Positions 22,732-37,912 of a stretch of DNA of 64,000 nt are shown piece by piece. The stretch covers positions 1 to 64,000 of the forward strand of contig RJVL01000004.1 of assembly GCA_003755025.1 (NCBI GenBank), read 5' to 3'. This stretch comes from Diaphorobacter nitroreducens (lineage in GTDB: Bacteria; Pseudomonadota; Gammaproteobacteria; Burkholderiales; Burkholderiaceae_C). The notes beneath the pieces were generated by a model. It did not search any database, had not been told where the DNA came from, and saw only the letters and a list, made by a program, of their open reading frames with translations. The stretch's first letter is position 1; every line of letters starts with the position of its first letter. Both the position numbers and the translations under genes were made by a program.

Positions 22732-23220
22732 TCAATGGCCGCCGTGCGGCTTGCCATGGCCCATGGCCGGCGCGGCCGTGGCGCTGACAGCGCGCACGGG
22801 CGCCTGCAACTCCTGTGTCGTGCGTTGGCCGTCCTTGGCTTCGAAAACCAGCGTCAGGGGCACGGTCGAGCCTTGGGCGACGGGCTGCTTCAGGTCCAGC
22901 AGCATGATGTGGTAGCCGCCGGGCTTGAGTTCCACGGCCTGGCCGGCTGGCAGATCCAGCGCGGGCAGTGGGCGCATCTTCATCACGTTGTCCACGAGCT
23001 TCATTTCATGGACTTCGGTGACGCCGGCCACCGGGCTGCTGGCGCTGACCAGGCGGGCATCCTGCGCGGCCGTCAGGCGCATGAAGGCGCCGGTGGCCTT
23101 TTGCTGCGGCACCGTGGCGCGCACCCAGGCGTCCTGCACGGTGACCTGGGCGTGGGCTGCGCCGGCCACGAGCAGGGTGGCGGCGATTGCGATGCGGGAG
23201 ACGAGCGATTGGGAGAACAT
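22732..23220 (-). CDS. Periplasmic copper chaperone, PCu(A)C family
   Basis: This secreted protein has 162 residues, with a signal peptide ending at about AHAQ (residue 24). The exact copper-binding pattern H-x10-M-x21-H-x-M is present: His71, Met82, His104 and Met106. Such proteins deliver Cu(I) to cytochrome oxidase or other cuproenzymes. The C-terminal MGHGKPHGGH adds possible metal ligands. The ATG at 23220 starts the signal peptide. It lies downstream of the DUF2946 gene on the same strand. Confidence 0.92.
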   Translation of the reverse strand: MFSQSLVSRIAIAATLLVAGAAHAQVTVQDAWVRATVPQQKATGAFMRLTAAQDARLVSASSPVAGVTEVHEMKLVDNVMKMRPLPALDLPAGQAVELKPGGYHIMLLDLKQPVAQGSTVPLTLVFEAKDGQRTTQELQAPVRAVSATAAPAMGHGKPHGGH

Positions 23221-23313
23221 GAAAAATCCTTGAATAAACGATGGGGCAGGCGGGCAGCGCTGCCGTGGTATGCGAGAAGAGTGCGGGTGCACGGTGGCCC
23301 GTGCCCGCCGTTT

Positions 23314-23783: not shown

Positions 23784-24524
23784 TCAGAACGTGCGCGTGC
23801 CGGGCGCGGCGAGTTGTCGCAACTGGTGCGCATCGCACAGGCGCCAGGTGCGCCGCTCGCCGCGGATCCAGCCTTTGGCCTGCCACTGGGCGAGCAGGCG
23901 GTTCAGCGTCTCGGCGCGGATGCCCAGGCGCGCTGCCAGGTGCCGCTGGCTGGTGGGCAGCTCGACCGGCTCGCCGCCCTCGCTGCACCGCGCCACCAGG
24001 TAGGCGGCCAGGCGCTGCTGCGCATTGCTGCTGGTGAGCCAGTCCACCTCGTTCACGCAGTGGTACAGGCGCAGGCTCAGCGATTCCAGCAGCCGCAGCG
24101 CCAGCAGCGGGTGGCGCTCGCACGCCGTGCGCAACGCCTGCCGGGGAATGCGCCAGACCCGCGTGGCGCCTTGCGCGCGCGCCGTCATCGGATAGAGCCC
24201 GTGCGGCATGAACATGGCCGCCTCGGCCACCCACTGCCCGGGGGTGAAACAGTGCAGCATGCGCTCCTCGCCCGTGGCGTCATAGCGCAGCACTTCCACG
24301 GCACCTTGCGCCACCAGCAGGCAGTGGCAGGCGGCTTCGCCTTCGTGGAACAGCGTTTCCCCATCAGAGTGCGTGCGCGCGAGGGCATGCTGGGCCAGAT
24401 CCTGCAATGCCGGCGCCGGCAAGCCCTGCAGCAGCGCGTTCGTGCCCAACAGGCTGCTCGCCTCTCTGAAGCCGCTCTGTTGCGCGTCCGCCGCGCCGCC
24501 CGGGGTCGCGTTGATAAAAGTCAT
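23784..24524 (-). CDS. Crp/Fnr-family regulator (DNR/NnrR-like)
   Basis: The protein has 246 residues. A cyclic-nucleotide-binding-type sensor domain spans about 25-150, a dimer helix follows, and a winged helix-turn-helix lies at about 175-235 (LPTSQRHLAARLGIRAET). The recognition helix has E-T-L-N-R, close to the E-xx-SR of FNR, predicting a TTGAT-type half-site. The N-terminal Cys cluster of oxygen-sensing FNR is absent, so sensing by haem or another ligand, as in DNR/NnrR, is more likely. It diverges from the TonB receptor operon that ends in nnrS. TTGATAAAAGTCAT overlaps its own start codon. Confidence 0.88.
   Translation of the reverse strand: MTFINATPGGAADAQQSGFREASSLLGTNALLQGLPAPALQDLAQHALARTHSDGETLFHEGEAACHCLLVAQGAVEVLRYDATGEERMLHCFTPGQWVAEAAMFMPHGLYPMTARAQGATRVWRIPRQALRTACERHPLLALRLLESLSLRLYHCVNEVDWLTSSNAQQRLAAYLVARCSEGGEPVELPTSQRHLAARLGIRAETLNRLLAQWQAKGWIRGERRTWRLCDAHQLRQLAAPGTRTF
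24511..24524. promoter_or_regulatory. Possible FNR/DNR-type site at the regulator start
   Basis: TTGATAAAAGTCAT has one perfect TTGAT half and a degenerate second half (GTCAT against ATCAA), with the normal 4-bp spacer. It overlaps the start codon of the regulator and could mediate autoregulation. Confidence 0.3.
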
Positions 24525-24564
24525 TTCATATTCCGGTTATGTGGTGGCATGCTTTGAGAATACG

Positions 24565-24581
24565 AATGAATCGCATTTATT
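24565..24581. promoter_or_regulatory. Fur-like inverted repeat before the TonB receptor
   Basis: AATGAAT-CGC-ATTTATT is an inverted repeat with one mismatch pair, in an AT-rich stretch 19 bp before the receptor ATG. It resembles a loose Fur box; a Crp-type site is an alternative. Confidence 0.35.
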
Positions 24582-24599: not shown

Positions 24600-26753
24600 A
24601 TGCCGCCGCACCACCTTCCTTCCCTTCGCTCCAGTCTTCGTGCATGGACCCGCACGACGGCCCCCGCCCTGGCGCTGCTGTGCCCGCTGGCGATGGCGGC
24701 CGAGCCTGCTCCGGCGCAACTGCCCACGGTGACCGTGCGTGCCGAGGGCGATGCCGATGCGGCCGCGCCGCTGCGCCCCTCCGTGGCGGCGGAGCAGCAG
24801 CGACTGGACCGCGTTCCCGGCGGGACCAACCTGGCCACTCCGCAGCAGGAGACGCGCCTGGCCACGCTGCGCGACGCCCTGGACTACCAGCCGGGCATCG
24901 TGATCCAGGACTTCTTTGGTGCCACGGACCAGCCGCGCCTGTCCATACGCGGGTCGGGCATCCAGAGCAACCCGCTGAACCGCGGCGTGCTGCTGCTGCA
25001 GGACGGACTGCCGCTGAACGACGCCGATGGCTCCTTCATCATCGGCCTGGTGGAGCCGCGCAATGCCGCGTTGGTCAGCGTGCGCCGCGGCGCCAACACG
25101 CTCACGCCGGGCGCGACCACGCTCGGGGGCGAGTTGGACTTCCAGTCGCTCACGGGCGCCGACGAGCGGGGCCGCGTGCGCACCGAGGTGGGCAGCTTTG
25201 GCCGCCAGGCGCTGCAGGGCGCCGTGGGCCTGCAGGGCGCGCAGTGGGATGGGCGCATCAGCGTGAGCGGCGACCGTTACGACGGCTACCGCCACCATTC
25301 GGCGTCGCAGCGCGATGCGCTGCATGCCAACGTGGGGTTCCAGGCCGCCGGCGGGTTCGAGAACCGCACCTACCTGTCGTGGACCGATCTGGACTTCGAC
25401 ATCCCCACCGTCGTGCCCAAGGACCGCGTGCGCACCCAGCCGCGCGGTGTGATGGGCGACGGCGCCACGCCGCAGGACCAGTTGCTCAACGTCTACCGCC
25501 GCGACCCGCGCCGTGAAGCCACGCAGCTGCGCCTGGCCAACCGCTCGCGCTGGGGTGACGATGCGCTGCGCCAGGAGCTGGGCGTCTACTGGCAGGACAC
25601 GGACGACCTGTTCAACAACCAGACCAGCTACACCATCACCCGCAGCCGCACGGCAGGTGCGCAGTGGCAGGCCAGCGGGCAGACGGCCGGTCCCCTGGCC
25701 TGGCGCGCGGCGCTGGGCTGGTCGCGCAGCCGCATGGACCGTGATCTGGATGCCACCAGCCCCGTGAACGGGGCAGCGCTGCAGCGCTTTGGCGCCTATG
25801 ACCTCACGGCCGACAACCTGCAGGCGCTGCTGGCGGCCGACTGGCGCCTGGCGCCGGCATGGACGCTGGTCGGTCAGTGGGGCTGGAGCCACCAGACACG
25901 CGACGCCGCCAGCCGCCTGGACGGCCGCACGCTGCAACAGCAGTGGAGCTTTTCCACGCCCAAGGTGGGGGTGAACTGGACGCCCACGCCGGCCGTGCGC
26001 TGGTGGGCCAACTTGAGCCGCAGCCAGGAGGCGCCCACATTCTGGGAGATCGTCTCCGCCACCGTAGCGCCCAACGCCCCCGCGGCGGCCAGCAGCGAGC
26101 TGGTGCGGCTGGACCTGCAGCGCGCCACCACCTTCGAGGTCGGTGGGCAAGGCCGCTGGGGCGAGGGTGCCCGTGCCCTGCACTGGACGGCTGCCGTGTA
26201 CCGCAGCCAGGTGGCCGGCGAACTCATGAGCACCACCGATGCCAACGGCATCAAGGTGGGCACCTACAACTACGCCGGCGGCACGCGCCACCAGGGCGTG
26301 GAGGCAGGGCTGTCGGGCAGTTGGCCGCTGGGCATGGGCGCACTCGACTGGCGTGGCTCCTGGACGTACAGCGACTTCCGCTTCAAAGACGGCATCTACG
26401 CCGGCAACCGCATCGCCGGCGTGCCGCGCCACTTGATCAATGCCGAGGTGCTGTGGCGCGTCGCCACGGGTGCGGGTGTCTGGCGCATGGGTCCCAGCCT
26501 GCGCTGGATGCCCACCGACACGCCCACCGACCACGCCAACACCGCCGGCAGCGAGCAGGACACCTACGCGCTGCTGGGCTTCAAGCTGGAATGGAAGAGC
26601 GGCCCCTGGACGGCCTACCTGCAGGCCGACAACCTCACCGACCGGCGCTACGCCAGCAGCTATGCCATTCGCAACCAGGCCACGGCCGCGCAGCCGGGCT
26701 ACCTGCCGGGCCTGGGCCGCAACGTGGCGGCGGGCGTGAGCTACCAGTTCTGA
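24600..26753 (+). CDS. TonB-dependent outer-membrane receptor (first of the locus)
   Basis: The protein has 717 residues. A signal peptide (about 1-33, ending LAMAAEP) precedes a TonB box-like LPTVTVRAEG, a plug domain (about 60-190, with RLSIRGSGIQSN and LLQDGLPLNDADG) and a 22-strand barrel ending in aromatic SYQF. It imports a metal chelate or cofactor across the outer membrane. It is the first gene of the run to nnrS, 75 bp from the divergent regulator. The substrate is unknown; iron-complex receptors of the FecA type are the closest by eye. Confidence 0.88.
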   Translation: MPPHHLPSLRSSLRAWTRTTAPALALLCPLAMAAEPAPAQLPTVTVRAEGDADAAAPLRPSVAAEQQRLDRVPGGTNLATPQQETRLATLRDALDYQPGIVIQDFFGATDQPRLSIRGSGIQSNPLNRGVLLLQDGLPLNDADGSFIIGLVEPRNAALVSVRRGANTLTPGATTLGGELDFQSLTGADERGRVRTEVGSFGRQALQGAVGLQGAQWDGRISVSGDRYDGYRHHSASQRDALHANVGFQAAGGFENRTYLSWTDLDFDIPTVVPKDRVRTQPRGVMGDGATPQDQLLNVYRRDPRREATQLRLANRSRWGDDALRQELGVYWQDTDDLFNNQTSYTITRSRTAGAQWQASGQTAGPLAWRAALGWSRSRMDRDLDATSPVNGAALQRFGAYDLTADNLQALLAADWRLAPAWTLVGQWGWSHQTRDAASRLDGRTLQQQWSFSTPKVGVNWTPTPAVRWWANLSRSQEAPTFWEIVSATVAPNAPAAASSELVRLDLQRATTFEVGGQGRWGEGARALHWTAAVYRSQVAGELMSTTDANGIKVGTYNYAGGTRHQGVEAGLSGSWPLGMGALDWRGSWTYSDFRFKDGIYAGNRIAGVPRHLINAEVLWRVATGAGVWRMGPSLRWMPTDTPTDHANTAGSEQDTYALLGFKLEWKSGPWTAYLQADNLTDRRYASSYAIRNQATAAQPGYLPGLGRNVAAGVSYQF

Positions 26754-26763
26754 GGGCGATGCG

Positions 26764-27894
26764 ATGCTGACGAACCCTGTGCAGTCCGTTGACCAGGGCC
26801 GCCGCCGCCTGCTGCAGACCTCGGGTGCGTTCGCGCTCGCCGGGTTGCCGGCATGGGGCGCGGCGGCTCCCGCTGCGCCTGCCGCTCCTGCCGCGCCGCT
26901 GGCCCGCCTGGTGCTGGCCGGGCCGCCAGCCATCGTCTCGGCGCCCCTGATCCACATGGCCGAGACTCAGGCGCTGGCGGGCGTGGCCGAGCGTGTGGAG
27001 TTCACCCCCTGGCGCGACCCCGACCAGCTGCGCGTGATGGCCTTGGGCCGCAAGGCGGATGTGCTGGCCATGCCCAGCAACGTGGCGGCCAACCTCTACA
27101 ACCGTGGCGCGGGCGTCACGCTGCTGAGCATCTCCACCTGGGGCGCGCTGTGGATCGTCACGCGTGATGGCGCGCGGCGCACGCTGGCGGATTTTCGCGG
27201 CGAGGAAATCGCCGTGCCTTTCCGCGGCGACATGCCGGATCTGATGCTGCAACTGCTTACAGCCCGGCAGGGGCTGGACGTGCGGCGCGACTTCCGCGTG
27301 CGCTACGTGCCCACGCCCATGGAAGCCATGCAGTTGCTCATCACACGCCGGGTGCGCCATGCGCTGCTGTCGGAGCCCGCCGTGTCCCTGGCGCTGCGCA
27401 AGACGCAGTCCTTTCCCCTCGGGCTGGTGGCGCCCGAGCTGCACCGCGGCGCCGACCTGCAGCAGGAATGGGGCCGTGTGTTCCAGCGCGCGCCGCGCAT
27501 CCCGCAGGCGGGCATTGCCGCCGTGGGCGCCCTGCGCGGGCAAGGCGCCGCGCTCGCGGCCGTGGACGCAGCCTATGCGCGCTCCGTCGCCTGGTGTCGC
27601 GCCCATCCCCAGGAGTGCGGCCGCATGGTGGCCGCACGCATCGACCTGCTGACCCCCGACGCCGTGGCCGACGCGCTGGCCACCAGCCAGCTGGACGCAG
27701 TCCCGGCGCAGCGGGCGCGCGCCGAGGTCGACTTCTTCTTCCAGCAACTGCTCGCGCGCGACCCTGCGCTGCTGGGCGGGCGGCTGCCCGACTCCGGTTT
27801 CTTCCACTCTCCCGCCCAGCCCCACGCCAGCAATGCGGCGCCAGCGTCCAGCCACTGCGGTCTTTCCTCAGGACGTTCATGCCACACCACTTGA
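26764..27894 (+). CDS. ABC transporter substrate-binding protein (NitT/TauT type), Tat signal
   Basis: The protein has 376 residues. A twin-arginine-like signal GRRRLLQTSGAFAL occurs at about 12-25. The mature part has the SsuA/ThiY-like layout (MPSNVAANLYNRGAGVTLLS, the hinge near VPFRGDMPDLMLQLL, and PMEAMQLLITRRVRHALLSEP). It starts 10 bp after the first receptor and overlaps the second receptor by 16 bp. Its permease and ATPase are probably the genes at 34814 and 35602 in the same run. The ligand is unknown. Confidence 0.85.
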   Translation: MLTNPVQSVDQGRRRLLQTSGAFALAGLPAWGAAAPAAPAAPAAPLARLVLAGPPAIVSAPLIHMAETQALAGVAERVEFTPWRDPDQLRVMALGRKADVLAMPSNVAANLYNRGAGVTLLSISTWGALWIVTRDGARRTLADFRGEEIAVPFRGDMPDLMLQLLTARQGLDVRRDFRVRYVPTPMEAMQLLITRRVRHALLSEPAVSLALRKTQSFPLGLVAPELHRGADLQQEWGRVFQRAPRIPQAGIAAVGALRGQGAALAAVDAAYARSVAWCRAHPQECGRMVAARIDLLTPDAVADALATSQLDAVPAQRARAEVDFFFQQLLARDPALLGGRLPDSGFFHSPAQPHASNAAPASSHCGLSSGRSCHTT

Positions 27895-29831
27895 TCCATG
27901 TGACCCTTTGCCGTCGCCATCCGCTGGCCCTGGCCGCCTTGCTGTGCCTGTCGGGCGCCGCGCGTGCCCAGGCCGCGGCCGAGGCCCCGGCCGCCACCGC
28001 CCTGGCGCCCGTCACCGTGACCGCAACACTGACCGAGCAGGACGCCCGCACGGCGCCCGCCAGCGTCACCGTGATCACCGCGCAGGACCTCGCCGAGCGC
28101 AACGCGGCCGACCTGCTGGACGCCGTGCGCGGCGCGCCGGGCATCACCTTCAGCGCGCGCCAGGTGGGCGGGCGCAAGACGCTCGCGCTGCGCGGGCTGG
28201 AGGGCAAGCACACGCTCACACTCATCGACGGGCGGCGCATCAGCGCGAGCGACGACGTGATCGGCCATTCCGACTACCAGTACGGCTGGCTGCCGGTGTC
28301 GGCCATCGAGCGTGTGGAAATCATCCGCGGGCCGATGTCGGCGCTGTACGGGTCCGAGGCGCTGGGCGGCGTGGTCAACATCATCACGCGCAAGCCGGGC
28401 GACCGCTGGATCGGCTCGCTGGGCTTCAACGCCGCCTTCCCCGCCGGCGGCGAGGCCGCGGCCGAAGGGGGCGCCTCGCTGTTTGCGGCGGGCCCACTGA
28501 ACGACCGGCTGCGCCTGTCGGTGAATGCCGAGTACGCCCACCGCGACGCCGTGGCGCAGCGCGAGGACCCGCGCTACAGCGAGATCGAGGGGCGCAAGCC
28601 GCGCAGCCTGGGGCTGAACGCCGAGCTGGACCTGGCGCCCGGCCACCGGCTGGAGGCCGGCGTGACCGATGGCGAGGAACGGCGCTTTTACGACGACGTG
28701 AGCGGCGCGCGCCCCTATGCCAACCGCTATGACCTCGACCGCCGCCAGACGCACGTGGGGTGGAAGGGCGAGATAGGCGCCTGGAAGGCGCAGGCACGCG
28801 CCTACCGCAGCGAGATCAGCGTGCGCAACAGCCGCACCAACGGCGTCAGCCCCACGCGGGCGCAGGACATGACGGACGATGTGGTGGACGGCCACGCCAC
28901 CACCCGCTGGGGTGGCCACCAGGTCACCGTGGGCGGCGAGTGGCGCAATGAAGAGCTGGTGAATTCCGGCCTGCTGAACGGCCGCGACGACGTGTCGCAC
29001 AAGGCCCTGTTCGTGCAGGACGAGTTCGCGCTGGGCACGAACCTGCTGGCCACGCTGGGCCTGCGCGCGGACCACCACGGCATCTTCGGCTCCGAGCTGA
29101 GCCCCCGCGCCTACCTGGTGTGGGAAGCCAGCCCCGCGCTGGTGGTCAAGGGCGGCCTGGGACACGCCTTCAAGGCGCCCACGCTCAAGCAGATCTCGCC
29201 GAACTACGTGGGCGCCGAGGGGCCGCACACCTTCCGGGGCAACGCCGACATCCAGCCGGAGACCTCCAACTCCTTCGAGATCGGGGCCGACTGGCAGGTC
29301 AGCCCCGCTTGGTCGCTGCGCGCCACCGCGTTCCATACCGAGGTCAAGCAGCTCATCACCTACCGCCTGATCCAGCAGGTGGGCACGCGCCGCACCTACC
29401 TCTACGACAACGTGGACGCGGCGCGCATCCAGGGCCTGGAGGCCGGCTTCACCTGGGCCATCACCGACGCGCTGCGCTGGAGCATGGACGCCACGCTGCT
29501 GCGCACCCGTGACAAGGCCACGGGCGAGCGCCTGTCCGACCGGCCCGACACCAGCGTGGCCTCGCGCCTGGCATGGCGCGTGGCGGGCTGGGACGCGCAG
29601 CTGGGCGCCGAGTACACGGGCCGCCAGACCAGCTCCGGTCAGCGCCTGCCCGCTTACACGCTGTGGAACGCGAGCGTGGGGCGCGCCTGGGCGCTGGGCG
29701 CGCACCAACGTCTGAACCTGCGCGCCGGCCTGGAGAACCTGGGCGACCTGCGCCTGGCGGAGAAGTCCCCCGCGTTCGGCTATGCCGAGCAGGGCCGCCG
29801 CGTCTTCGTGAGTGCGCGGCTGGATTTCTGA
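27879..29831 (+). CDS. TonB-dependent outer-membrane receptor (HmuR/BtuB-like)
   Basis: The protein has 650 residues with a signal peptide ending near ARAQAA (about residue 30). The plug has PASVTVITAQDLAERNAADLLDAV, LALRGLEGKHTLTLIDG and RVEIIRGPMSALYGSEALGGVVNIIT, strongly typical of BtuB/HmuR-type receptors, and the barrel ends in ARLDF. Position directly before a CobN-like gene mirrors hmuR-hmuS of Bacteroidetes, so haem or another tetrapyrrole is the likeliest cargo. The ATG at 27879 lies inside the end of the binding-protein gene with AGGA upstream, indicating translational coupling. Confidence 0.9.
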   Translation: MPHHLIHVTLCRRHPLALAALLCLSGAARAQAAAEAPAATALAPVTVTATLTEQDARTAPASVTVITAQDLAERNAADLLDAVRGAPGITFSARQVGGRKTLALRGLEGKHTLTLIDGRRISASDDVIGHSDYQYGWLPVSAIERVEIIRGPMSALYGSEALGGVVNIITRKPGDRWIGSLGFNAAFPAGGEAAAEGGASLFAAGPLNDRLRLSVNAEYAHRDAVAQREDPRYSEIEGRKPRSLGLNAELDLAPGHRLEAGVTDGEERRFYDDVSGARPYANRYDLDRRQTHVGWKGEIGAWKAQARAYRSEISVRNSRTNGVSPTRAQDMTDDVVDGHATTRWGGHQVTVGGEWRNEELVNSGLLNGRDDVSHKALFVQDEFALGTNLLATLGLRADHHGIFGSELSPRAYLVWEASPALVVKGGLGHAFKAPTLKQISPNYVGAEGPHTFRGNADIQPETSNSFEIGADWQVSPAWSLRATAFHTEVKQLITYRLIQQVGTRRTYLYDNVDAARIQGLEAGFTWAITDALRWSMDATLLRTRDKATGERLSDRPDTSVASRLAWRVAGWDAQLGAEYTGRQTSSGQRLPAYTLWNASVGRAWALGAHQRLNLRAGLENLGDLRLAEKSPAFGYAEQGRRVFVSARLDF

Positions 29832-29850
29832 ACGCTTTGCGCGGGCGGTA

Positions 29851-29904
29851 TTGTTTTGATAGCTGTTCGCGCTTGATACACAAGGGCTGGAGGCCGATTT
29901 GCTT
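29851..29904 (+). repeat. Interspersed repeat copy overlapping the CobN-like start
   Basis: TGTTTTGATAGCTGTTCGCG, then CTTGATACACAAGGGCTGGAGGCC, reads as one copy of the repeat. Its GGAGGCC end serves as the ribosome binding site of the gene starting at 29899. Confidence 0.8.
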
Positions 29905-32900
29905 AAAAAATGGTTGATGGGCCTGATGCTGCTGCTTACGGGCGCGGCGCAGGCGGCATCGGTGCTGTTCATTGCCACGGGCAACGTACCGGCTGGCAAG
30001 TTCCATCAGTTGGCCGAGATCGCGCGCCCGCACGGGCTGACCGTGGAGGTGCGCTTCCTGGGCAGCCTGCCCGCCGACGTGGACGGCGGGCTGTGGCGTG
30101 GGCATGACGCGGTGTTCTTCGACAGCTACCTGCAGGACGAGGTGCGCGCGCGGCTCACGCGCGCGCTGCCCGCCCTGGCAGTGCCGCATGCCTGGCTGTA
30201 CGACGCGCGTCCCGCCTGGGGCGGCGGCCTGCCCGAGGCCGTGGCGCAGCGGCTCGTGCGCTACTACGCCAGCGGCGGGCGCCAGAACTTCGAGGGGTTC
30301 TTCGCCACGCTGGCGGCGCAGCTGCAGGGGCGCGACGCGCTGGCCGCCGCTGCGCCGCCCGTGGTGTTCCCCAAAACCGGCATCTACCACCCGCGCGCGC
30401 CGGGCCTGGTGACGGCCGACCCCGCCGCCTACCTGCGCGCGCAGGGCGTCGACCCCACGGACGGCCAGCGCCGCCCCGTGGTCGCCATCGCCCTGCACCA
30501 GCAGTACATCGCCTCGATGCAGACGGCATTCATCGACGACCTCATCGCGCGCATCGAAGCCGCCGGCGCCACGGCGCTGGCGTTCTACACGCCCATGCTC
30601 GACCCGGGCGGCGTCACGCGCGTGCTGCAGCCCGGCGGCGCGGGCACGCCGGTGCTGGCCGACGTGCTCATCAACACGCAGATCATGTTGAACGCCGACG
30701 AGCGGCGCGCCGAGTTCACGCGGCTGGGCATGCCCGTGCTGCAGGCCATGCCCTACCGGCGGGGCGACGAGGCCCAGTGGGCCGACAGCCCGCAGGGCGT
30801 GGCCCTCATGGACGTGCCCTTCTACCTGGCCCAGGCCGAGTACGCGGGCGTGGTGGACATCCAGGTGGCCGCCGCCACGCGCGCGGGGGACGAGCAGGTC
30901 GTGCCCATCGCCGCGCAGGCCGCCGCCGTCGTCGGCAAGGCGATCAACCTGGTGGCGCTGCAGCGCAAGGCGAACGCCGACAAGCGCATCGCCGTGTTCT
31001 TCTGGAATTACCCGCCGGGGGAGAAGAACCTGTCGGCCTCGTTCCTCAACGTCCCGCGCAGCCTGCAGGCCACGCTGGCCGCGCTGCGCGGCGCGGGCTA
31101 CGACACCCAGGCCGCGGACGAGCAGCCGCTGATCGCGCAGTTGCAGCGCCTGCTCGCGCCCGCCTACCGCGACGATATGTTGGCGCCCTTGCTGCGCGAT
31201 GGTCTGGCCGACCGCCTGCCGATGCAGGAATACCGCGCCTGGCTCGCCACGCTGCCCGCGGCCACGCGCAATGCGCTGCACAAGAGCTGGGGGGCGCCCG
31301 AGGACTCGTCGATGGTGGTGCGCGAAGGCGGCCAGGCGTTCTTCGTCATCCCGCGCCTCATGCTGGGCAAAGTGGCGCTGCTGCCGCAGCCGCCGCGCGG
31401 CGAAAAGTGGGCAGACAAGGAGAAGTCGCTCTACCACTCCACCAGCGCCTGGCCTTCCCACCACTACCTGGCCGTGTACCTGTGGGCGCGGCGGAACGTG
31501 GGCGATGCCTTCGTGCACTTCGGCACGCACGGCAGCCAGGAATGGCTGCCGGGCAAGGAGCGCGGCCTGGCCGTGACCGACCCTGGCATGCTGGCCGTGG
31601 GTGATGTGCCCGTGGCCTACCCCTACATCGCCGACAACATCGGCGAGGCGCAGCAGGCGCGCCGGCGCGGGCGCGCGGTGATCGTGAGCCACCAGACGCC
31701 GCCGTTTCAGCCCGCGGGGCTGCATGCGCAGCTCACCGCGCTGCACGACCTGCTGCACGCCTGGGTGGCGCAGGACGAGGGTGCGGTGAAGGAGCGCATC
31801 GCCGCCGATCTGCTGGGGGGCGCCGAGAAGCAGCGCATCGTGGCCGACATGGGGCTCACCGCCGCGCAGGCGCGCGCCGACTTCGCGGGCTTCGTCAACC
31901 AGTTGCATGCGCACCTGCACGAACTGGCCGAGACCGCCCAGCCCCTGGGCCTGCACGCGCTGGGCACCGCGCCGGCCGACGCGCACCGCCTGGGCACCGT
32001 ACTGCTGATGCTGGGCCGCCCCTACTGGGAGGCTGCCGCGCGCCATGCGGGCACACCGGCCGAGGACATCGACGAAGCCCTGGTGGGCGACTACGAGCGC
32101 ATGGCGCAGACCGTGCCCTACCGCCTGCTGGCGCGCCATCTGCTGGAGGGCGAAGCCGACGACGCGCTGCCCGCGCCGCTGCGAGACCACATGGCCCAGG
32201 CGCGGCAGTGGTGGCAGGCCATCGGCGCACAGAACGAACTGCCGGCGCTGCTCGCCGTGCTGGCGGGGCGGCACCTGCCCACGTCCTACGGCGGCGATCC
32301 GCTCAAGAACCCCGACGCCTACCCGACGGGCCGCAACCTGTATGGCTTCGACCCTTCGCGCGTGCCTACCCCGCAGGCCTGGGAGGCCGGCAAGCAGGCC
32401 GCCGAGCAGCTCATTGCCGCCTACCGCGAACAGCATGGCGGCACCGCGCCCACCAAGGTCACCTTCTCGCTCTGGTCGGTGGAAACCATGCGCCACCAGG
32501 GCCTGCTGGAGGCGCAGGCGCTGTGGCTCATGGGGGTGGAGCCGGTGTGGGACCAGGGCGGGCGCGTCACCGGCATGCGGCTGGTGCCGCGCAAGCAGCT
32601 CGCCCGCCCGCGGGTGGACGTGGTGCTGTCGGCCACCGGCCTGTATCGCGACCATTTCCCCAACGCCATGCAGCAGCTTGCGCGCGCCGCGCAGCTGGCC
32701 GCGCAGGCCGACGAGCCCGACAACCCCGTGGCGGCCAACGCCCGCGCCATCGCCGAGCGGCTGCGCGCGCGCGGCATGGCGGAGGGCGCGGCGCTGCGCG
32801 CGGGCCAGACACGTATCTTCTCTTCCGAGTCGGGCCGCTACGGCACGGGGCTGGACGACGCGGTGCTGGCCACCGACACCTGGCAGGGCAACGCCGAGGG

Positions 32901-33927
32901 CGACCGCAAGCTCGCGCAGCTCTATCTCTCGCGCATGCAGTACGCCTACGGGCCCGACGAGTCCGAGTGGGGCAGCCTGCCTGCCGCGCAACGCGGCGGC
33001 AAGGACGGGACGGGCAACCTCTATGCCGAGCACCTGCGCGGCACGCAGGCCGCCGTGCTCTCGCGCAGCTCCAATACCTACGGCATGCTGACCACCGACG
33101 ACCCGTTCCAGTACCTGGGCGGCATTGCGCTGGCCGTGCGCCACCTCGACGGCAAGGCTCCGCAGCTGCTCATCAGCAACCTGCGCGGGCCGGGCAGCGG
33201 GCGCGTGGAAGGCGCGGCGCAGTTTCTCGCCAAGGAGCTGGCGACGCGCCAGTTCCACCCCGGCTACATCCAGGGCCTGATGAAGGAAGGCTACGCGGGC
33301 ACGCTGCAGGTGCTGGACGCCACCAACAACTTCTGGGGCTGGACGGCCGTAGCGCGTGAGATCGTGCGCGACGACCAGTGGCAGGAGATGGCCGACGTCT
33401 ACGTGCGCGACAAGCACCGCCTGGGCCTGGATGCCTGGTTCGAGCAGCACAACCCGCACGCCCTGGCGCAGACCATCGAGCGCATGCTGGAGGCCGCGCG
33501 CCAGGGCTACTGGCAGGCCGATGCGCAAACGCTGCAGACCCTCAAGAGCCGCTGGCGCGACCTGTCGCGGCGCTTCGACGTGCGCAGCGACAACGCGCAC
33601 TTTGCGTCCTTCGTTGCCGAGGGGGCGCCGCAGGCCGCCGCGATGGGCTTCGGCCTGCAGTCGCCTGCGCGCGCCGCGCGTCCCACGGCAACGCCATCCG
33701 TGGCCCCGCAAGCGCCGACGGTGCCTGAGCCGCAGGCCCCGCCCGATCCGGCCCCCGAACCCGTGCCGCCACCGCCCACGGTAACGGGCATGCGCCTGGC
33801 ACCCGTGGAGCCGGTGCAGCCCCCCCGACCTACGCTGGCCACGGTCGCGCTGGGGCTGCTGCTTGCGGCCATCACCGCGGCGGGCGCCCTGCGCCAGCGC
33901 CGGCGCACCCTTGTTCCATCCCATTGA
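29899..33927 (+). CDS. Periplasmic, membrane-anchored CobN-like chelatase (HmuS-like)
   Basis: The protein has 1342 residues and belongs to the CobN/BchH family of large metallochelatase subunits: HFGTHGSQEWLPGKE near 540-555 and NPDAYPTGRNLYGFDPSRVP near 805-824 are clear CobN signatures. Unlike cytoplasmic CobN, it begins with a signal peptide (LKKWLMGLMLLLTGAAQA) and ends with a Pro-rich linker (about 1255-1300), one membrane helix (about 1311-1331) and RQRRR, so it should sit in the periplasm tethered to the inner membrane. No CobS/CobT or ChlI/ChlD ATPase gene is nearby. The neighbouring ExbB/DUF2149-like pair suggests energy from the proton gradient. HmuS of Bacteroidetes, a CobN-like protein of haem use, is the best precedent. 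The start is TTG at 29899 after GGAGG; ATG at 29917 would lose the Lys-Lys of the signal peptide. Confidence 0.88.
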   Translation: MLKKWLMGLMLLLTGAAQAASVLFIATGNVPAGKFHQLAEIARPHGLTVEVRFLGSLPADVDGGLWRGHDAVFFDSYLQDEVRARLTRALPALAVPHAWLYDARPAWGGGLPEAVAQRLVRYYASGGRQNFEGFFATLAAQLQGRDALAAAAPPVVFPKTGIYHPRAPGLVTADPAAYLRAQGVDPTDGQRRPVVAIALHQQYIASMQTAFIDDLIARIEAAGATALAFYTPMLDPGGVTRVLQPGGAGTPVLADVLINTQIMLNADERRAEFTRLGMPVLQAMPYRRGDEAQWADSPQGVALMDVPFYLAQAEYAGVVDIQVAAATRAGDEQVVPIAAQAAAVVGKAINLVALQRKANADKRIAVFFWNYPPGEKNLSASFLNVPRSLQATLAALRGAGYDTQAADEQPLIAQLQRLLAPAYRDDMLAPLLRDGLADRLPMQEYRAWLATLPAATRNALHKSWGAPEDSSMVVREGGQAFFVIPRLMLGKVALLPQPPRGEKWADKEKSLYHSTSAWPSHHYLAVYLWARRNVGDAFVHFGTHGSQEWLPGKERGLAVTDPGMLAVGDVPVAYPYIADNIGEAQQARRRGRAVIVSHQTPPFQPAGLHAQLTALHDLLHAWVAQDEGAVKERIAADLLGGAEKQRIVADMGLTAAQARADFAGFVNQLHAHLHELAETAQPLGLHALGTAPADAHRLGTVLLMLGRPYWEAAARHAGTPAEDIDEALVGDYERMAQTVPYRLLARHLLEGEADDALPAPLRDHMAQARQWWQAIGAQNELPALLAVLAGRHLPTSYGGDPLKNPDAYPTGRNLYGFDPSRVPTPQAWEAGKQAAEQLIAAYREQHGGTAPTKVTFSLWSVETMRHQGLLEAQALWLMGVEPVWDQGGRVTGMRLVPRKQLARPRVDVVLSATGLYRDHFPNAMQQLARAAQLAAQADEPDNPVAANARAIAERLRARGMAEGAALRAGQTRIFSSESGRYGTGLDDAVLATDTWQGNAEGDRKLAQLYLSRMQYAYGPDESEWGSLPAAQRGGKDGTGNLYAEHLRGTQAAVLSRSSNTYGMLTTDDPFQYLGGIALAVRHLDGKAPQLLISNLRGPGSGRVEGAAQFLAKELATRQFHPGYIQGLMKEGYAGTLQVLDATNNFWGWTAVAREIVRDDQWQEMADVYVRDKHRLGLDAWFEQHNPHALAQTIERMLEAARQGYWQADAQTLQTLKSRWRDLSRRFDVRSDNAHFASFVAEGAPQAAAMGFGLQSPARAARPTATPSVAPQAPTVPEPQAPPDPAPEPVPPPPTVTGMRLAPVEPVQPPRPTLATVALGLLLAAITAAGALRQRRRTLVPSH

Positions 33928-33940
33928 ACCTCGATACACC

Positions 33941-34486
33941 ATGACCAATCCGATCGAATCGGCGATGTACGTCGCCAGCCAGCTTTTCCTCTATCCCGTG
34001 CTCATCGCCATCGCGCTGCTGTTCGTGCATGCGTTCTATGCGCTGGGGGCCTTCGCATGGCAGGCGTGGCAGCGCCACCGGGGCCAGCCCGGGGGGTTTG
34101 AACTGGCCGCCGCGCGGGCGCGCAATCCGGCGCTTTCGCTGATCGACCTGGAGGCGCTGGCCACGAAGCGGCTGGAGTTCGCCCGCATTGCCACCCGCGT
34201 GGCGCCCATGCTGGGCCTGGTGGCCACCATGATCCCCATGGGGCCTGCGCTCATGGCACTGGCCGACGGGCAACTGGCCGACGTCTCGCGCAACCTCATG
34301 GTGGCGTTCTCGGCGGTGATCCTTGCGCTGCTGGCGGCGGCCATCAGTTATGCCGTGGTCAACGTGCGCCGGCGCTGGTATGCCGTGGACCTGGCCCTCA
34401 TCGAACAGCGTGCGCCGGTGCAGCCGCCCGCGCCGGCGCCCGTGCACGACCCCGTGGCCGCGCTGGCGATGGAGGGGGTGCAATGA
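33941..34486 (+). CDS. MotA/TolQ/ExbB-family proton channel protein (HmuT-like)
   Basis: This inner-membrane protein has 181 residues and three predicted helices: about 15-40, 95-118 and 128-155. RIATRVAPMLGLVATMIPMGPAL and LMVAFSAVILALLAAAISYAV match the pore helices of the ExbB/TolQ/MotA family. It lies 13 bp after the CobN-like gene and overlaps the next gene by four bases. With the DUF2149 partner it should form a proton-driven motor, here presumably acting on the CobN-like protein or on TonB. Confidence 0.88.
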   Translation: MTNPIESAMYVASQLFLYPVLIAIALLFVHAFYALGAFAWQAWQRHRGQPGGFELAAARARNPALSLIDLEALATKRLEFARIATRVAPMLGLVATMIPMGPALMALADGQLADVSRNLMVAFSAVILALLAAAISYAVVNVRRRWYAVDLALIEQRAPVQPPAPAPVHDPVAALAMEGVQ

Positions 34487-34812
34487 GCCGCCTGCGCCTG
34501 CTGGACGACACGGAGACGGATGACCCCATCCTCTCGGTCGTCAACCTCATCGATGTGTTCCTGGTCATCATCGCGGCGCTGCTGCTGGCGGTGGCCAACA
34601 GTGCGGTCAATCCCTTTGGCAGCGAATCGGTCACCGTCATCAAGAACCCCGGCCAGCCCAGCATGGAGGTGATCGTGAAGGACGGCCGCAAGATCGACCG
34701 CTACCGCGCCAGCGGCGAGATCGGGGAGGGCGAGGGCGCCAAGGCCGGCGTGGCCTACCGGCTCAAGGACGGCTCCATGGTCTACGTGCCCGAGCCGGGG
34801 GAGGGCGGCTGA
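34483..34812 (+). CDS. DUF2149 protein, ExbD/TolR-like (HmuU-like)
   Basis: The protein has 109 residues. A short cytoplasmic N-terminus is followed by a single helix SVVNLIDVFLVIIAALLLAV, with Asp24 at the position of the proton-carrying Asp of ExbD/TolR (their pattern is PLIDVxLVLL). A periplasmic domain of about 70 residues follows. The ATG overlaps the upstream stop (ATGA). DUF2149 genes are recurrently found with cobN-like and ExbB-like genes. I infer that it is the stator B subunit of the pair. Confidence 0.85.
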   Translation: MSRLRLLDDTETDDPILSVVNLIDVFLVIIAALLLAVANSAVNPFGSESVTVIKNPGQPSMEVIVKDGRKIDRYRASGEIGEGEGAKAGVAYRLKDGSMVYVPEPGEGG

Positions 34813-34813
34813 C

Positions 34814-35605
34814 ATGGGTCTTGCCTGGCGCTGGCTGCGCGGCATTCCCGCGTACCTCTGGAGCGGCTGGGGCGCGGTTGCCAGCCTGCTGCTGTTCGTG
34901 GCGCTGTGGGAGCTGGGCGCGGGCTTGTATGGCCCGCTGATCCTGCCCGACCCGATGACCACCTTCGCCACCCTCTGGGGCCTGGTGCAATCGGGCGTTG
35001 CCTGGCCCGAGCTGGCCGTGACCGCGCGGCGTGCGCTTGCCGGCCTGCTGCTGGCGGTGACCGTGGGCAGTGCGCTGGGGCTGCTGGCGGGGCTGTCGAT
35101 GACGGCCTCGATGATGGCGCGGCCCTGGGTCACGCTGCTGCTGGGCATGCCGCCCATCGCCTGGCTGGTGCTGGCCATGCTGTGGTTCGGCGCGGGGGAT
35201 GGCACGCCGGTGTTCACGGTGTTCGTGGCCTGCCTGCCGGTGGTGTTCATCGGCGCGCTGCAGGGCACGCGCACGCTGGACCACCACCTCAAGGACATGG
35301 CGCGCGCCTATCGCCTGCCCTGGCGCATGCGCCTCACCGATCTGTACCTGCCGCATGTGGCGGCGTACCTCTTCCCCGCGTGGATCACGGCGCTGGGCTC
35401 GTCGTGGAAAGTGGCCGTGATGGCCGAACTGCTGGCCACCAGCGACGGCGTGGGCGCGGCGCTGGCGGTGACGCGCTCGCACCTGGACACGGGCGCATCG
35501 CTGGCCTGGATCTGCGCCGTCGTGGGCAGCCTGCTGGTGCTGGAGTACGCGCTGCTGGAGCCCGTCAAGCGCGAGCTGGAGCGTTGGCGGGGAGCGGGCA
35601 CATGA
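34814..35605 (+). CDS. ABC transporter permease (SsuC/TauC-like)
   Basis: This inner-membrane permease has 263 residues and about six helices. The cytoplasmic coupling loop is DMARAYRLPWRMRLTDLYLPH (the EAA-like loop, split as DMARAYRLPW and RMRLTDLYLPH), followed by YLFPAWITALGSSWKVAVMAE, as in NitT/TauT permeases. It starts one base after the DUF2149 stop and overlaps the ATPase start. It probably works with the binding protein at 26764. Confidence 0.9.
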   Translation: MGLAWRWLRGIPAYLWSGWGAVASLLLFVALWELGAGLYGPLILPDPMTTFATLWGLVQSGVAWPELAVTARRALAGLLLAVTVGSALGLLAGLSMTASMMARPWVTLLLGMPPIAWLVLAMLWFGAGDGTPVFTVFVACLPVVFIGALQGTRTLDHHLKDMARAYRLPWRMRLTDLYLPHVAAYLFPAWITALGSSWKVAVMAELLATSDGVGAALAVTRSHLDTGASLAWICAVVGSLLVLEYALLEPVKRELERWRGAGT

Positions 35606-36435
35606 GCGGCCTGCAGATTGAGGCGCTGCACCACGCCTACGGGCCGGCGATGGTGTTGCAAGGCATCGATTTGCAGGTGCCACCAGGGCGCATCGTTGCG
35701 CTGGTGGGCCCCTCGGGCTGCGGCAAGACCACGCTGCTGCACCTGTGCGCCGGCTTGCTGGCGCCGCAGCAGGGCCGCATCGAGCAGCCCCTGCAGCCCA
35801 CCGCGGTGATGTTCCAGCAGCCGCGGCTGCTGCCGTGGATGACCACCCGCGACAACATTGCACTGGGCCTGAAGGCCCGAGGGGTCGCGCGAGCCGAGCG
35901 CCACCGCCAGGCCGCCGAGATGGCGCAGGCGCTGGGTCTGCCGGTTGCGGCGCTGGCGCAGTACCCGGCCGAGTTGTCGGGCGGCATGCAAAGCCGTGCC
36001 GCGCTGGCGCGCGCGCTGGTACTGGCACCTGCGCTGCTGCTGATGGACGAGCCCTTTGCCGCGCTGGATGTGGGCTTGCGCAGCCAGTTGCACCAGTTGC
36101 TGCTGGCCCGGCAGGCACACACGGGCATGGCCGTGCTGCTGATTACCCACGACCTGATGGAAGCCGTTCGGCTGGCGGACGAGGTGCTGGTGATGGCCGC
36201 ATCGCCGGGCCGCATCGTGGCGCGCTACCACCCGCCCGGCGCGGCGGTAGCGCGTGGCGACGCGCTGGTGCACCGCTGCGCGGCGGAGTTGCAGCAGCAT
36301 CCCGCGGTGCGTGCCGCGTTCGGGTTGCCCGACAGGGCGGGCTCCGCCACGGACGCGGAGGACAGCGTGGCGGCTGCGGGCACGTGGCACGCCACCGCCG
36401 CCATGGTCGGCGGGCCGCAGCGCAGTGGTTGTTGA
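35602..36435 (+). CDS. ABC transporter ATPase (SsuB/TauB-like)
   Basis: This ATPase has 277 residues. Walker A is GPSGCGKTT (about 36-44), the signature LSGGMQSRAALARAL, Walker B LLLMDEPFAALD and the switch His is in LLITHDLMEAV. The ATG overlaps the permease stop (ATGA). The longer open frame upstream lies antiparallel to the domain layout and is rejected. About 40 residues at the C-terminus are a low-complexity extension. Confidence 0.92.
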   Translation: MSGLQIEALHHAYGPAMVLQGIDLQVPPGRIVALVGPSGCGKTTLLHLCAGLLAPQQGRIEQPLQPTAVMFQQPRLLPWMTTRDNIALGLKARGVARAERHRQAAEMAQALGLPVAALAQYPAELSGGMQSRAALARALVLAPALLLMDEPFAALDVGLRSQLHQLLLARQAHTGMAVLLITHDLMEAVRLADEVLVMAASPGRIVARYHPPGAAVARGDALVHRCAAELQQHPAVRAAFGLPDRAGSATDAEDSVAAAGTWHATAAMVGGPQRSGC

Positions 36436-36497
36436 ATTTGATATGAAAAATGCCGCCAGCCATTGCAGGGCAAGCGCGAGCAGCTCCTTTTTTTGAA
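36434..36497 (-). repeat. Interspersed repeat copy directly before nnrS
   Basis: TTGAATTTGATATGAAAAATG, then CAGGGCAAGCGCGAGCAGCTCC, is an inverted, degenerate copy. It occupies the whole gap between the ATPase and NnrS genes. Confidence 0.55.
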
Positions 36498-37718
36498 ATG
36501 AATCACCCCGCGAACCTGCTGCGCAGCGGCCACCCCATCTGGATGTGCGGCATGCGCCCCTTCTTTGTATTGACCATGGCGTCGGCCATCGGCTTGCTGG
36601 GCTGGTGGGCCTTCGTGCTGGCCCTGGGCTGGCCCGTGCCCCGGGTGGTCGGCGGGCCGCTGGTGTGGCATGTGCATGAGCTGGTCTACGGCTTTGCCAT
36701 GGCGGCGGTGGCGGGCTTTGCGTTGACGGCGCTGCCGGAGTTCACCGGCAGGCCTGGCGCCACGCGAAGCCAGTTGCGCGCGCTGGTGCTGCTGTGGCTG
36801 TGCGGTCGGCTGGGGTTCTGGGTGTCAGGCCATGCCGGCGGTGTGGCGTTGTGGCTGGCGGCCGCGGCGCAAGTGGGCCTGCCGCTGGCGCTGCTGGCGG
36901 TGTTGGCACCCGCGCTGCGCAGCCCGCAAGGGCGACGGCACGGGTCGTTTGGCGTGCTGCTGCTGGCTCTGGCAGGAACGGCGGCGGGCTTCTACGCCGA
37001 TGCGCTGCGCGGCATGGCGGGGCTGCGGTGGCTGCATGCGGCGCTGGGCGTGCTCATGTTGCTCATCGTGGTGGCGGCCAGCCGCATTTCGATGCGCATC
37101 GTGAACCGCGCCATCGAGGAGGTCACGCCGGGTGCCGCTCCCTACGTGGCCCGCCCGCCGCGGCGCCACCTGGCGGCACTGTGCATCACGTTGTACACCG
37201 CGGCCGAGTTCCTGCGCCCGGCGAGCGCGCTGGCGGGCTGGCTGGCGCTGGCTGCCTCGGCGGCGGTCTTTCACCTGATGGGTGACTGGCACGTCGGTGC
37301 CGCCCTGTGGCGTCGGCGGTTTCCGCTGCTGCTCTACGCCATGTACGCCTGCATGGCCCTGGGCTATGGCGCGCTGGGGCTGGCGCATCTGGGTGTCCTT
37401 CCCGGCACCGCTGCAGGCCGGCACCTGATGGGCATGGGCACCGTGGGGCTGGGCATTTACGTGGTGATCGCCATCGCCGGGCGTGCCCACGCCGGTCTGG
37501 CACCGGACCCCGGGCGGTGGGTGCCCCTGGGCGCGGCCGCGCTGCTGGTGGCGACGGCCGTGCGTGCGGCCGCTGGCGGGATGGGCGGGGGAGGTGGTTG
37601 GCTGGCCCTGGCGGCTGCAGGTTGGTGCCTGGCCTTCCTGGCGGTTCTGTGGCGCATCGGCCCGCCGCTGTGGCGGCCGCGCAGCGATGGGCGCCAGGGG
37701 TGCGATGGGCCTGAATAG
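36498..37718 (+). CDS. nnrS: NnrS-family haem- and copper-containing membrane protein
   Basis: This polytopic protein has 406 residues and about 12 helices. RPFFVLTMASAIGLLGWW, HVHELVYGFAMAAVAGFALTALPEFTG and HLMGMGTVGLGIYVVIAIAGRAH are NnrS signatures with the conserved His residues. NnrS is linked to relief of nitric oxide stress in denitrifiers and contains haem and copper. Its place at the end of a tetrapyrrole/metal uptake run could mean supply of its cofactors or shared nitrosative control. The ATG at 36498 is preferred over a codon 48 bp upstream that lies within the repeat. Confidence 0.88.
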   Translation: MNHPANLLRSGHPIWMCGMRPFFVLTMASAIGLLGWWAFVLALGWPVPRVVGGPLVWHVHELVYGFAMAAVAGFALTALPEFTGRPGATRSQLRALVLLWLCGRLGFWVSGHAGGVALWLAAAAQVGLPLALLAVLAPALRSPQGRRHGSFGVLLLALAGTAAGFYADALRGMAGLRWLHAALGVLMLLIVVAASRISMRIVNRAIEEVTPGAAPYVARPPRRHLAALCITLYTAAEFLRPASALAGWLALAASAAVFHLMGDWHVGAALWRRRFPLLLYAMYACMALGYGALGLAHLGVLPGTAAGRHLMGMGTVGLGIYVVIAIAGRAHAGLAPDPGRWVPLGAAALLVATAVRAAAGGMGGGGGWLALAAAGWCLAFLAVLWRIGPPLWRPRSDGRQGCDGPE

Positions 37719-37836: not shown

Positions 37837-37912
37837 TGGTGGGCCCTGAGTGACTCGAACACTCGACCAACGGATTAAGAGTCCGCTGCTCTACCAACTG
37901 AGCTAAGAGCCC
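37837..37912 (-). tRNA. tRNA-Lys (anticodon CTT)
   Basis: The minus strand gives a 76-nt cloverleaf: acceptor GGGCTCT with AGGGCCC, D-arm AGCTCAGTTGGTAGAGC, anticodon loop CTCTTAA (anticodon CTT), T-arm GTTCGAGTC and encoded CCA (37837-37839). Confidence 0.95.

Follow-up and report, generated by a model that had tools for sequence, protein, structure and literature searches.

ATP is not expected in the periplasm, and the locus described here raises the question of how a chelatase placed in that compartment might be driven. The locus lies in Diaphorobacter nitroreducens, in a stretch of 64,000 nucleotides that was analyzed as a whole (contig RJVL01000004.1 of assembly GCA_003755025.1, positions 1 to 64,000, forward strand; hereafter, the window), and consists of nine genes around a CobN-like chelatase. 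Our answer, which we rate as evenly poised between right and wrong, is that the protein is an anchored periplasmic CobN-type chelatase, likely powered by the ExbB/DUF2149 pair encoded next to it, and that it likely strips iron from a tetrapyrrole such as haem. The new point is that this pair likely drives the chelatase, not the receptor; no such proposal was found among the matches listed in the open-licence PMC literature, cited here and below from excerpts. Work on HmuS, the chelatase of the hmuYRSTUV system of Bacteroidota, settled neither the role of HmuU/HmuV nor what powers the reaction in the periplasm. If true, our reading would provide the first chelatase driven by proton flow rather than ATP, and one motor would account for haem, zinc, and corrinoid versions in bacteria, as well as for unexplained CobN-like clusters in methanogens.

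Organization of the Locus

The nine-family block (nt. 24600-37718 of the window) has all its genes on the + strand, with start codons checked. The initial annotation had listed these families in this order on one strand, with overlaps or tiny gaps, and profiles and coordinates confirm it: neighboring genes overlap by 16, 4, and 4 bases or are separated by 1, 10, 13, and 14, with 67 before cobN. The genes, and the chelatase features on which the argument turns, are as follows:

24600..26753, +, TBDR1, a TonB-dependent receptor (TBDR) and remote PqqU/YncD relative (family and fold matches)
26764..27894, +, SBP, a NitT/TauT-like substrate-binding protein of the twin-arginine translocation (Tat) type, twin-Arg by eye (profile and fold matches)
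27879..29831, +, TBDR2, a TonB-dependent receptor with Cir as its nearest solved relative (profile and fold matches)
29899..33927, +, CobN-like chelatase, TTG start, signal peptide by eye (PF02514, 993 bits)
33941..34486, +, ExbB/MotA-like motor subunit (PF01618)
34483..34812, +, DUF2149 protein, ExbD-like, Asp-24 in a single predicted helix (PF09919, 99 bits)
34814..35605, +, ATP-binding cassette (ABC) permease, NitT/TauT type (profile matches)
35602..36435, +, ABC ATPase, NitT/TauT type (profile matches)
36450..37718, +, NnrS family membrane protein (PF05940, 236 bits)
31516..31533, +, chelatase motif 1, HFGTHG, residue 540, counterpart of the HmuS His-538 motif (alignment)
33088..33123, +, chelatase motif 2, LTTDDPFQYLGG, LSLDHxxEFMGG in HmuS (alignment)
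33781..33798, +, juxtamembrane box VTGMRL, chelatase residues 1295-1300 (pattern)
33835..33891, +, C-terminal hydrophobic anchor, chelatase residues 1313-1331 (hydrophobicity)

The locus shares with hmuYRSTUV a receptor, a CobN-like protein with N- and C-terminal helices and HFGTHG, an ExbB-like protein (HmuU), a DUF2149 protein (HmuV), and iron regulation (PMC10434189). The comparison drawn at the outset with this operon holds for the order of the core and fails for the names, given that ExbB and DUF2149 correspond to HmuU and HmuV rather than to HmuT and HmuU, HmuT being a membrane protein (PMC13227078, PMC10434189, PMC10100974). Unlike hmuYRSTUV, the window locus has no HmuY or HmuT counterpart, differs in motif 2, and adds ABC and NnrS genes.

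A Predicted Periplasmic Chelatase Distinct from HmuS

The window chelatase, the only CobN relative found by search in its genome, passes the NCBIfam cut-off for CobN (NF004644, 1379.5 vs. 1248 bits). Cytoplasmic CobN is soluble and works with CobS/CobT, whereas the window protein shows a signal peptide by eye and a hydrophobic C-terminus; the periplasmic location given in the initial annotation is borne out as a prediction. CobS was not found over its cut-off in the window genome (best hit 24.6 bits vs. 558.55), and neither was BchI/ChlI, a weak test given that Synechococcus elongatus failed the same cut-off. On these predicted features, the protein is not a cytoplasmic cobaltochelatase. It resembles the large subunits of CobN-CobS-CobT and ChlH-ChlI-ChlD as a member of the same superfamily, but those enzymes use an ATP-driven AAA+ partner (PMC7689651), whereas here there is a signal peptide, an anchor, and no AAA+ partner over cut-off.

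Motif 1 carries the HFG(T/A)HG catalytic His of HmuS. The second HmuS motif, LSLDHxxEFMGG (with His-1209 and Glu-1212), is replaced in the window protein, and the Met-rich HmuS insertion of ~120 residues is for the most part missing, with 117 residues and three Met between the aligned blocks where HmuS has 278 residues. The haem ligands of HmuS are Met-79 and His-254 (PMC12583661). Identity to HmuS is 33% over the C-terminal part, and in a tree into which the HmuS fragment was placed by fragment addition, HmuS groups with L049 (support 1.0) and the window protein falls apart from them, within the loci of its own gene order (type A, below; support 1.0). By motif and by tree, the window chelatase is judged not to be HmuS. 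We did note that the Burkholderiaceae chelatase of L049 (genome G015) has the HmuS signature ISLDHVYEFMGG and, in its C-terminal part, is 57% identical to HmuS of B. theta. Deep branching was not firm in either of two trees: the smallest clade that contains all anchored chelatases also holds HmuS and BchH/CobN controls (support 0.534 or 0.757), so we do not argue that these proteins arose only once.

The ExbB/DUF2149 Pair and Its Partners

A search for DUF2149 across 250 genomes from the same family gave 42 matches in 37 of them; 40 of the 42 loci were fetched, the remaining two being the window and G219. ExbB adjoins DUF2149 in all 40. The order TBDR-CobN-ExbB-DUF2149 of the window (type A) is seen in 20 and the order ExbB-DUF2149-CobN (type B) in 18, with no CobN in the last two, such that a same-strand CobN is present in 38 regions and lies within 1.2 kb in 34. 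The DUF2149 protein has the single helix of ExbD and TolR, and its Asp-24 is invariant in 18 of 18 aligned sequences, archaea included. The pair resembles ExbB-ExbD, TolQ-TolR, and MotA-MotB in its ExbB/MotA profile and single-helix partner with an invariant Asp, a likeness already in print between HmuU/HmuV and ExbB/ExbD (PMC10100974); it differs in that the partner is DUF2149, not ExbD by profile, and that the proposed load is a C-terminally anchored chelatase.

The pair could instead be a dedicated TonB energizer of the outer-membrane receptor, with a chelatase that needs no motor. This is the role assigned to HmuU/HmuV in the excerpts of PMC10100974 and PMC12583661, it would fit the in vitro activity of HmuS lacking its helices (PMC12583661; see below), and a same-strand receptor occurs somewhere in 35 of the 40 fetched regions. 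Yet no receptor lies within 1.2 kb of the pair in any of them (in type A, a consequence of the intervening cobN), and the window genome has four ExbD genes, all elsewhere than the DUF2149 gene. On pGLOV01 of Trichlorobacter lovleyi, TBDR-DUF2162-ExbB-DUF2149-CobN is followed by a separate ExbB-ExbD-TonB-TBDR set in one operon, so the TonB task is already taken there.

Methanogens have no outer membrane, which makes archaea the key test of the motor's partner. DUF2149 is present in 15 of 39 archaeal genomes with a methyl-coenzyme-M reductase site, and of 25 places, 20 were fetched: ExbB stands beside DUF2149 in all 20, CobN lies in the region in 12, and each of three loci inspected has DUF2162 before ExbB. 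HmuS/HmuV clusters were already listed from Methanomicrobia (PMC10100974). This retention of ExbB/DUF2149 counts against the receptor as its partner, and taken together we consider the energizer explanation rather unlikely.

Among the CobN-free archaeal loci, L236 and L241 are complete on both sides and L238, L242, L244, and L250 lie near contig ends. An 873-residue protein with a C-terminal helix is encoded immediately upstream of the pair in L241, and in L245 and L246, the pair adjoins a C-terminally anchored CARDB protein longer than 2,100 residues. These giant archaeal CARDB proteins, with PQQ-propeller (pyrroloquinoline quinone, PQQ) or NosD-type beta-helix domains, are located as follows:

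L245:4133-10846, giant CARDB protein
L246:11360-17803, -, giant CARDB protein

Two further archaeal arrangements were seen: in L236, from a Methanococcoides genome, a gene for a ZnuA-type binding protein (L236:7112-8029) stands upstream of the pair, and in L240, from a methanogen, several tandem CobN-like genes surround a single pair.

Anchor and Juxtamembrane Box

The chelatases linked to the pair end in a proline-rich or polar linker, then a short box, then a hydrophobic helix. Among linked chelatases, 31 of 38 from bacteria (those over 1,100 residues, window included) and 12 of 14 from archaea (those over 1,400 residues) have an anchor that passes a hydrophobicity cut of 1.6. Six of the bacterial failures score 1.19-1.56 and the seventh, L033, ends early; both archaeal failures are cut by the region end. 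None of 20 unlinked CobN/BchH controls passes (highest 1.2), with the lowest linked chelatase overlapping the controls. In L033 (G224), the CobN-like frame stops early and the anchor is missing, while the neighboring genes were detected.

The box, [VI]xGxx[LM] 10-23 residues before the helix, occurs in 22 of the 38 bacterial and 9 of the 14 archaeal chelatases and in none of the 20 soluble, unlinked controls. Shuffling the linkers gave means of 0.38 of 37 (22 observed) and 0.21 of 12 (9 observed), respectively, and the background of the pattern is 43 of 988 50-residue windows of protein bodies; these counts overstate independence, as the sequences are related. Five of 159 matched plasmid records were examined, and the box is present in all four from other phyla or classes (Runella, Azospirillum, Trichlorobacter, and Pseudoalteromonas) and, as ISGMRL, in the Diaphorobacter plasmid. 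Compared as sequences, the agreement of the archaeal box (VEGYEM) with the bacterial ones (VTGMRL, VKGYKM, VQGQVM, and VEGFEM) is a stronger point than the counts.

In both CobN-free bacterial loci, ExbB is preceded by a Sel1-repeat protein with a signal peptide by eye and a chelatase-like anchor, and CobN had no match in either genome:

L053:7806-8684, Sel1-repeat protein upstream of ExbB/DUF2149
L059:7785-8870, -, Sel1-repeat protein upstream of ExbB/DUF2149

A profile built from 36 chelatase anchors and run over 4,653 open frames gave these two proteins 17.4 and 12.4 bits; an unrelated N-terminal match (14.2 bits) lies between them, and the next non-chelatase frame scored 11.3. Near the Sel1-repeat gene of L053, we also noted an open frame that contains the 4Fe-4S domain Fer4_5 and looks NosR-like by eye.

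Given that no ATP is expected in the periplasm, that no CobS was found at cut-off, and that a proton-channel pair is the steady partner, we propose that this pair drives the chelatase by acting on the anchor. TBDR2 would import the tetrapyrrole via TonB, together with one of the four ExbD-type systems of the genome; ExbB and DUF2149 would convert proton flow into work on the anchor, replacing the ATP-driven CobS/CobT or ChlI/ChlD motor; and released iron would enter through an importer. In a broader view, to which we give slightly less than even credence, ExbB/DUF2149 would be an old, outer-membrane-independent machine that pulls extracytoplasmic proteins by a C-terminal helix and a V-x-G-x-x-M/L box and whose payload can be swapped. 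That these payloads are an iron chelatase here, a corrinoid chelatase in type B, and Sel1-repeat or CARDB proteins elsewhere likewise falls just short of an even chance.

Regulation and Choice of Metal

The promoter region of the TBDR1 operon is common to a divergent regulator gene, a homologue of which also adjoins TBDR1 in L072, L074, L075, L077, and L079, and holds a Fur-like box:

23784..24524, -, divergent Crp/Fnr-type regulator (cNMP_binding and HTH_Crp_2, Pfam)
24559..24577, +, Fur-like box AATACGAATGAATCGCATT, 14 of 18 matches to a Fur consensus (site scan)

An FNR-like TTGATAAAAGTCAT upstream was rejected, being the coding start of the regulator gene. Regions were scanned with consensus strings for Fur and Zur, a Fur-like site was taken as at least 14 matches, and 30 single-base shuffles were run per region. 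In front of TBDR2, a Fur-like box was found in 11 of 18 loci of type A, leaving aside L042 and L044, where other genes precede the receptor; in front of TBDR1, one was found in 9 of 12. The 17 type B loci and the shuffles gave none. The letters of the window box recur identically upstream of TBDR1 in L074 and as a close variant in L072.

Type B differs. Cobalamin riboswitches are present in 12 of the 14 type B loci scanned (not in L064 and L070), and scans of 13 loci of type A, of L072, and of the window operon gave none. Two type B loci were profile-scanned: L055 has CobU/CobP, CobB, and CobO above cut-off, and its receptor, SBP, and permease have the B12 receptor, BtuF, and BtuC models as best or near-best matches, all below cut-off; CobB is also present in L062. 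To judge from these matches, type B looks like a corrinoid operon, which argues against DUF2149 (HmuV) as the marker of haem transport suggested in PMC10100974. Such riboswitch operons with a chelatase predicted to be periplasmic (e.g., L055) may point to a periplasmic metal step on corrinoids.

The same evidence bears on whether the window chelatase might insert metal or act on a corrinoid, i.e., perform periplasmic insertion or exchange rather than iron removal. Its motif 2 is CobN-like (DD, not DH) and its type B sisters sit in cobalamin operons with riboswitches, but most type A loci have Fur-like boxes, those scanned have no cobalamin riboswitch, and profile scans of the window operon gave no corrinoid gene except the chelatase. 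We regard this explanation as improbable.

Zinc as the metal appears more improbable still. The operon would then be the counterpart of PA1922-PA1925 of P. aeruginosa, which has the same order of Cir-type receptor, CobN-like protein, proton channel protein labelled ExbB/ExbD, and DUF2149 (PMC9431628, PMC4542158); it differs in being Zur-regulated and induced by zinc starvation, and the operon as listed contains no ABC or NnrS genes. No Zur-like site reached threshold, by the consensus used, in the regions upstream of 18 type A loci, 17 type B loci, or 12 TBDR1 genes.

On a Runella plasmid (L273), a TBDR, a permease of the urease-accessory type, ExbB, DUF2149, and CobN lie among hyp hydrogenase genes, an arrangement that suggests a nickel version. 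The chelatase machine thus appears to serve several metals. At the window locus, iron is our best guess for the metal and haem the most likely carrier; haem oxygenase and HemS had no match in the window genome.

Several observations weigh against iron removal from haem by a proton-driven chelatase. As to the motor, the window DUF2149 protein matches DUF2149 and not the ExbD profile (PF02472), and its fold model is too poor to use (mean predicted local distance difference test, pLDDT, 60; predicted template modeling score, pTM, 0.27). No chelatase is in reach of the pair in 2 of 40 bacterial and 8 of 20 archaeal loci, the strict box pattern is absent from 16 of the 38 linked bacterial chelatases, and VTGMRL recurs at residue 890, in the body of the window chelatase. 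Most directly, B. theta HmuS without its two terminal helices still made protoporphyrin from haem in vitro (PMC12583661), so the motor is not strictly needed there; its role may then lie in turnover, in releasing the product, or in letting the substrate in. PMC13227078 does not exclude that HmuT/U/V affect HmuS activity. As to the reaction and the metal, an Asp in motif 2 replaces the metal-binding His-1209 of HmuS, such that the metal and the direction of the reaction may not be those of HmuS, TBDR2 stays below all haem-receptor cut-offs (185 vs. 317 bits), 7 of 18 type A loci have no Fur-like box at threshold, and the P. aeruginosa set of the same order is under Zur control (PMC4542158, PMC8456098, PMC9431628).

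The Importer Module

The nine genes comprise two modules, TBDR1-SBP-permease-ATPase-NnrS (module 1) and TBDR2-CobN-ExbB-DUF2149 (module 2). Both the five-gene and the four-gene module recur in other genomes, so the grouping is more than chance, and each also occurs alone in relatives. The SBP was sought in 399 genomes, giving 31 matches in 30 genomes, of which 23 neighborhoods were examined; in a class-wide sample it is rare (4 of 274 genomes, its own included). Its best database match, at 99% identity, is a protein of Diaphorobacter nitroreducens. NnrS adjoins the ABC genes in 17 of 20 newly fetched SBP loci, the stretch ending first in L077, L078, and L080, and a Diaphorobacter plasmid record that is the counterpart of L077 shows NnrS beside them.

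A CobN-like gene is in reach in 8 of the 23 SBP neighborhoods and missing from 15, a few of which are on short contigs (e.g., L080, L082, and L090). Conversely, ABC/NnrS genes accompany only 4 of 21 type A loci (L033, L042, L044, and the window). Where the modules are joined, the CobN set is either nested between SBP and permease (window, L033, L042, L077, L078, and L079; the far half is cut in L077 and L078, and visible only for L077, via the plasmid record) or the two stand in series (L072 and L076). A third receptor lies between CobN and ExbB in L042 and L044 (by eye) and in the Diaphorobacter plasmid (by annotation).

Module 1 thus stands as an independent unit, whose union with the chelatase module is recurrent but optional. 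The joining of ABC/NnrS genes to the core in betaproteobacteria, to which the initial annotation drew attention, is therefore real, although not as one fused system. Its further suggestion that the ABC importer takes up a product of periplasmic metal removal or insertion is not supported in that form: with 15 of 23 module 1 loci lacking CobN and 4 of 21 type A loci having the ABC genes, the importer is not an obligatory part of the pathway.

The modules may also have no functional tie, with the nesting a by-product of recombination within a shared iron-regulated operon, a tentative but serious possibility that agrees with the many module 1 loci without CobN, with G119 and G225, which hold both modules hundreds of kilobases apart, and with L043, the closest chelatase relative, which has no ABC module. 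The neighborhood survey nevertheless shows that the ABC/NnrS genes, often apart from the CobN-like core, are joined to it in two layouts and four genera, which argues against pure accident; the Diaphorobacter plasmid adds a further case, and Fur-like boxes stand on both modules in most loci. Both modules may have been joined in some lineages as serving iron supply, a weaker element of our proposal than the motor.

As to cargo, the binding-protein fold, permease, and ATPase are those of a NitT/TauT importer, and no named-transporter NCBIfam model passes its cut-off for the window ABC genes among the matches listed. No ligand could be named from the SBP fold, which matches binders of sulfonate, bicarbonate, PQQ, and unknown ligands alike. 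Two weak matches point to PQQ, which we do not put forward as the cargo; in contrast to PqqU/PqqT, TBDR1 falls below the PqqU cut-off (84.9 vs. 1200 bits) and the SBP fold match is common to sulfonate and bicarbonate binders. Among the literature matches listed (including excerpts of PMC6769254 and PMC9409073), no tie between NnrS and NitT/TauT importers was found. More weakly, module 1 may be a second iron-regulated importer, for a small anionic or metal-binding compound.

Two further genes flank the operon. A PCu(A)C copper chaperone gene (nt. 22732-23292, -) lies near the regulator, with homologues near several module 1 and type A loci, and a tRNA gene (nt. 37840-37912, -), a common type of integration site, immediately follows the operon.

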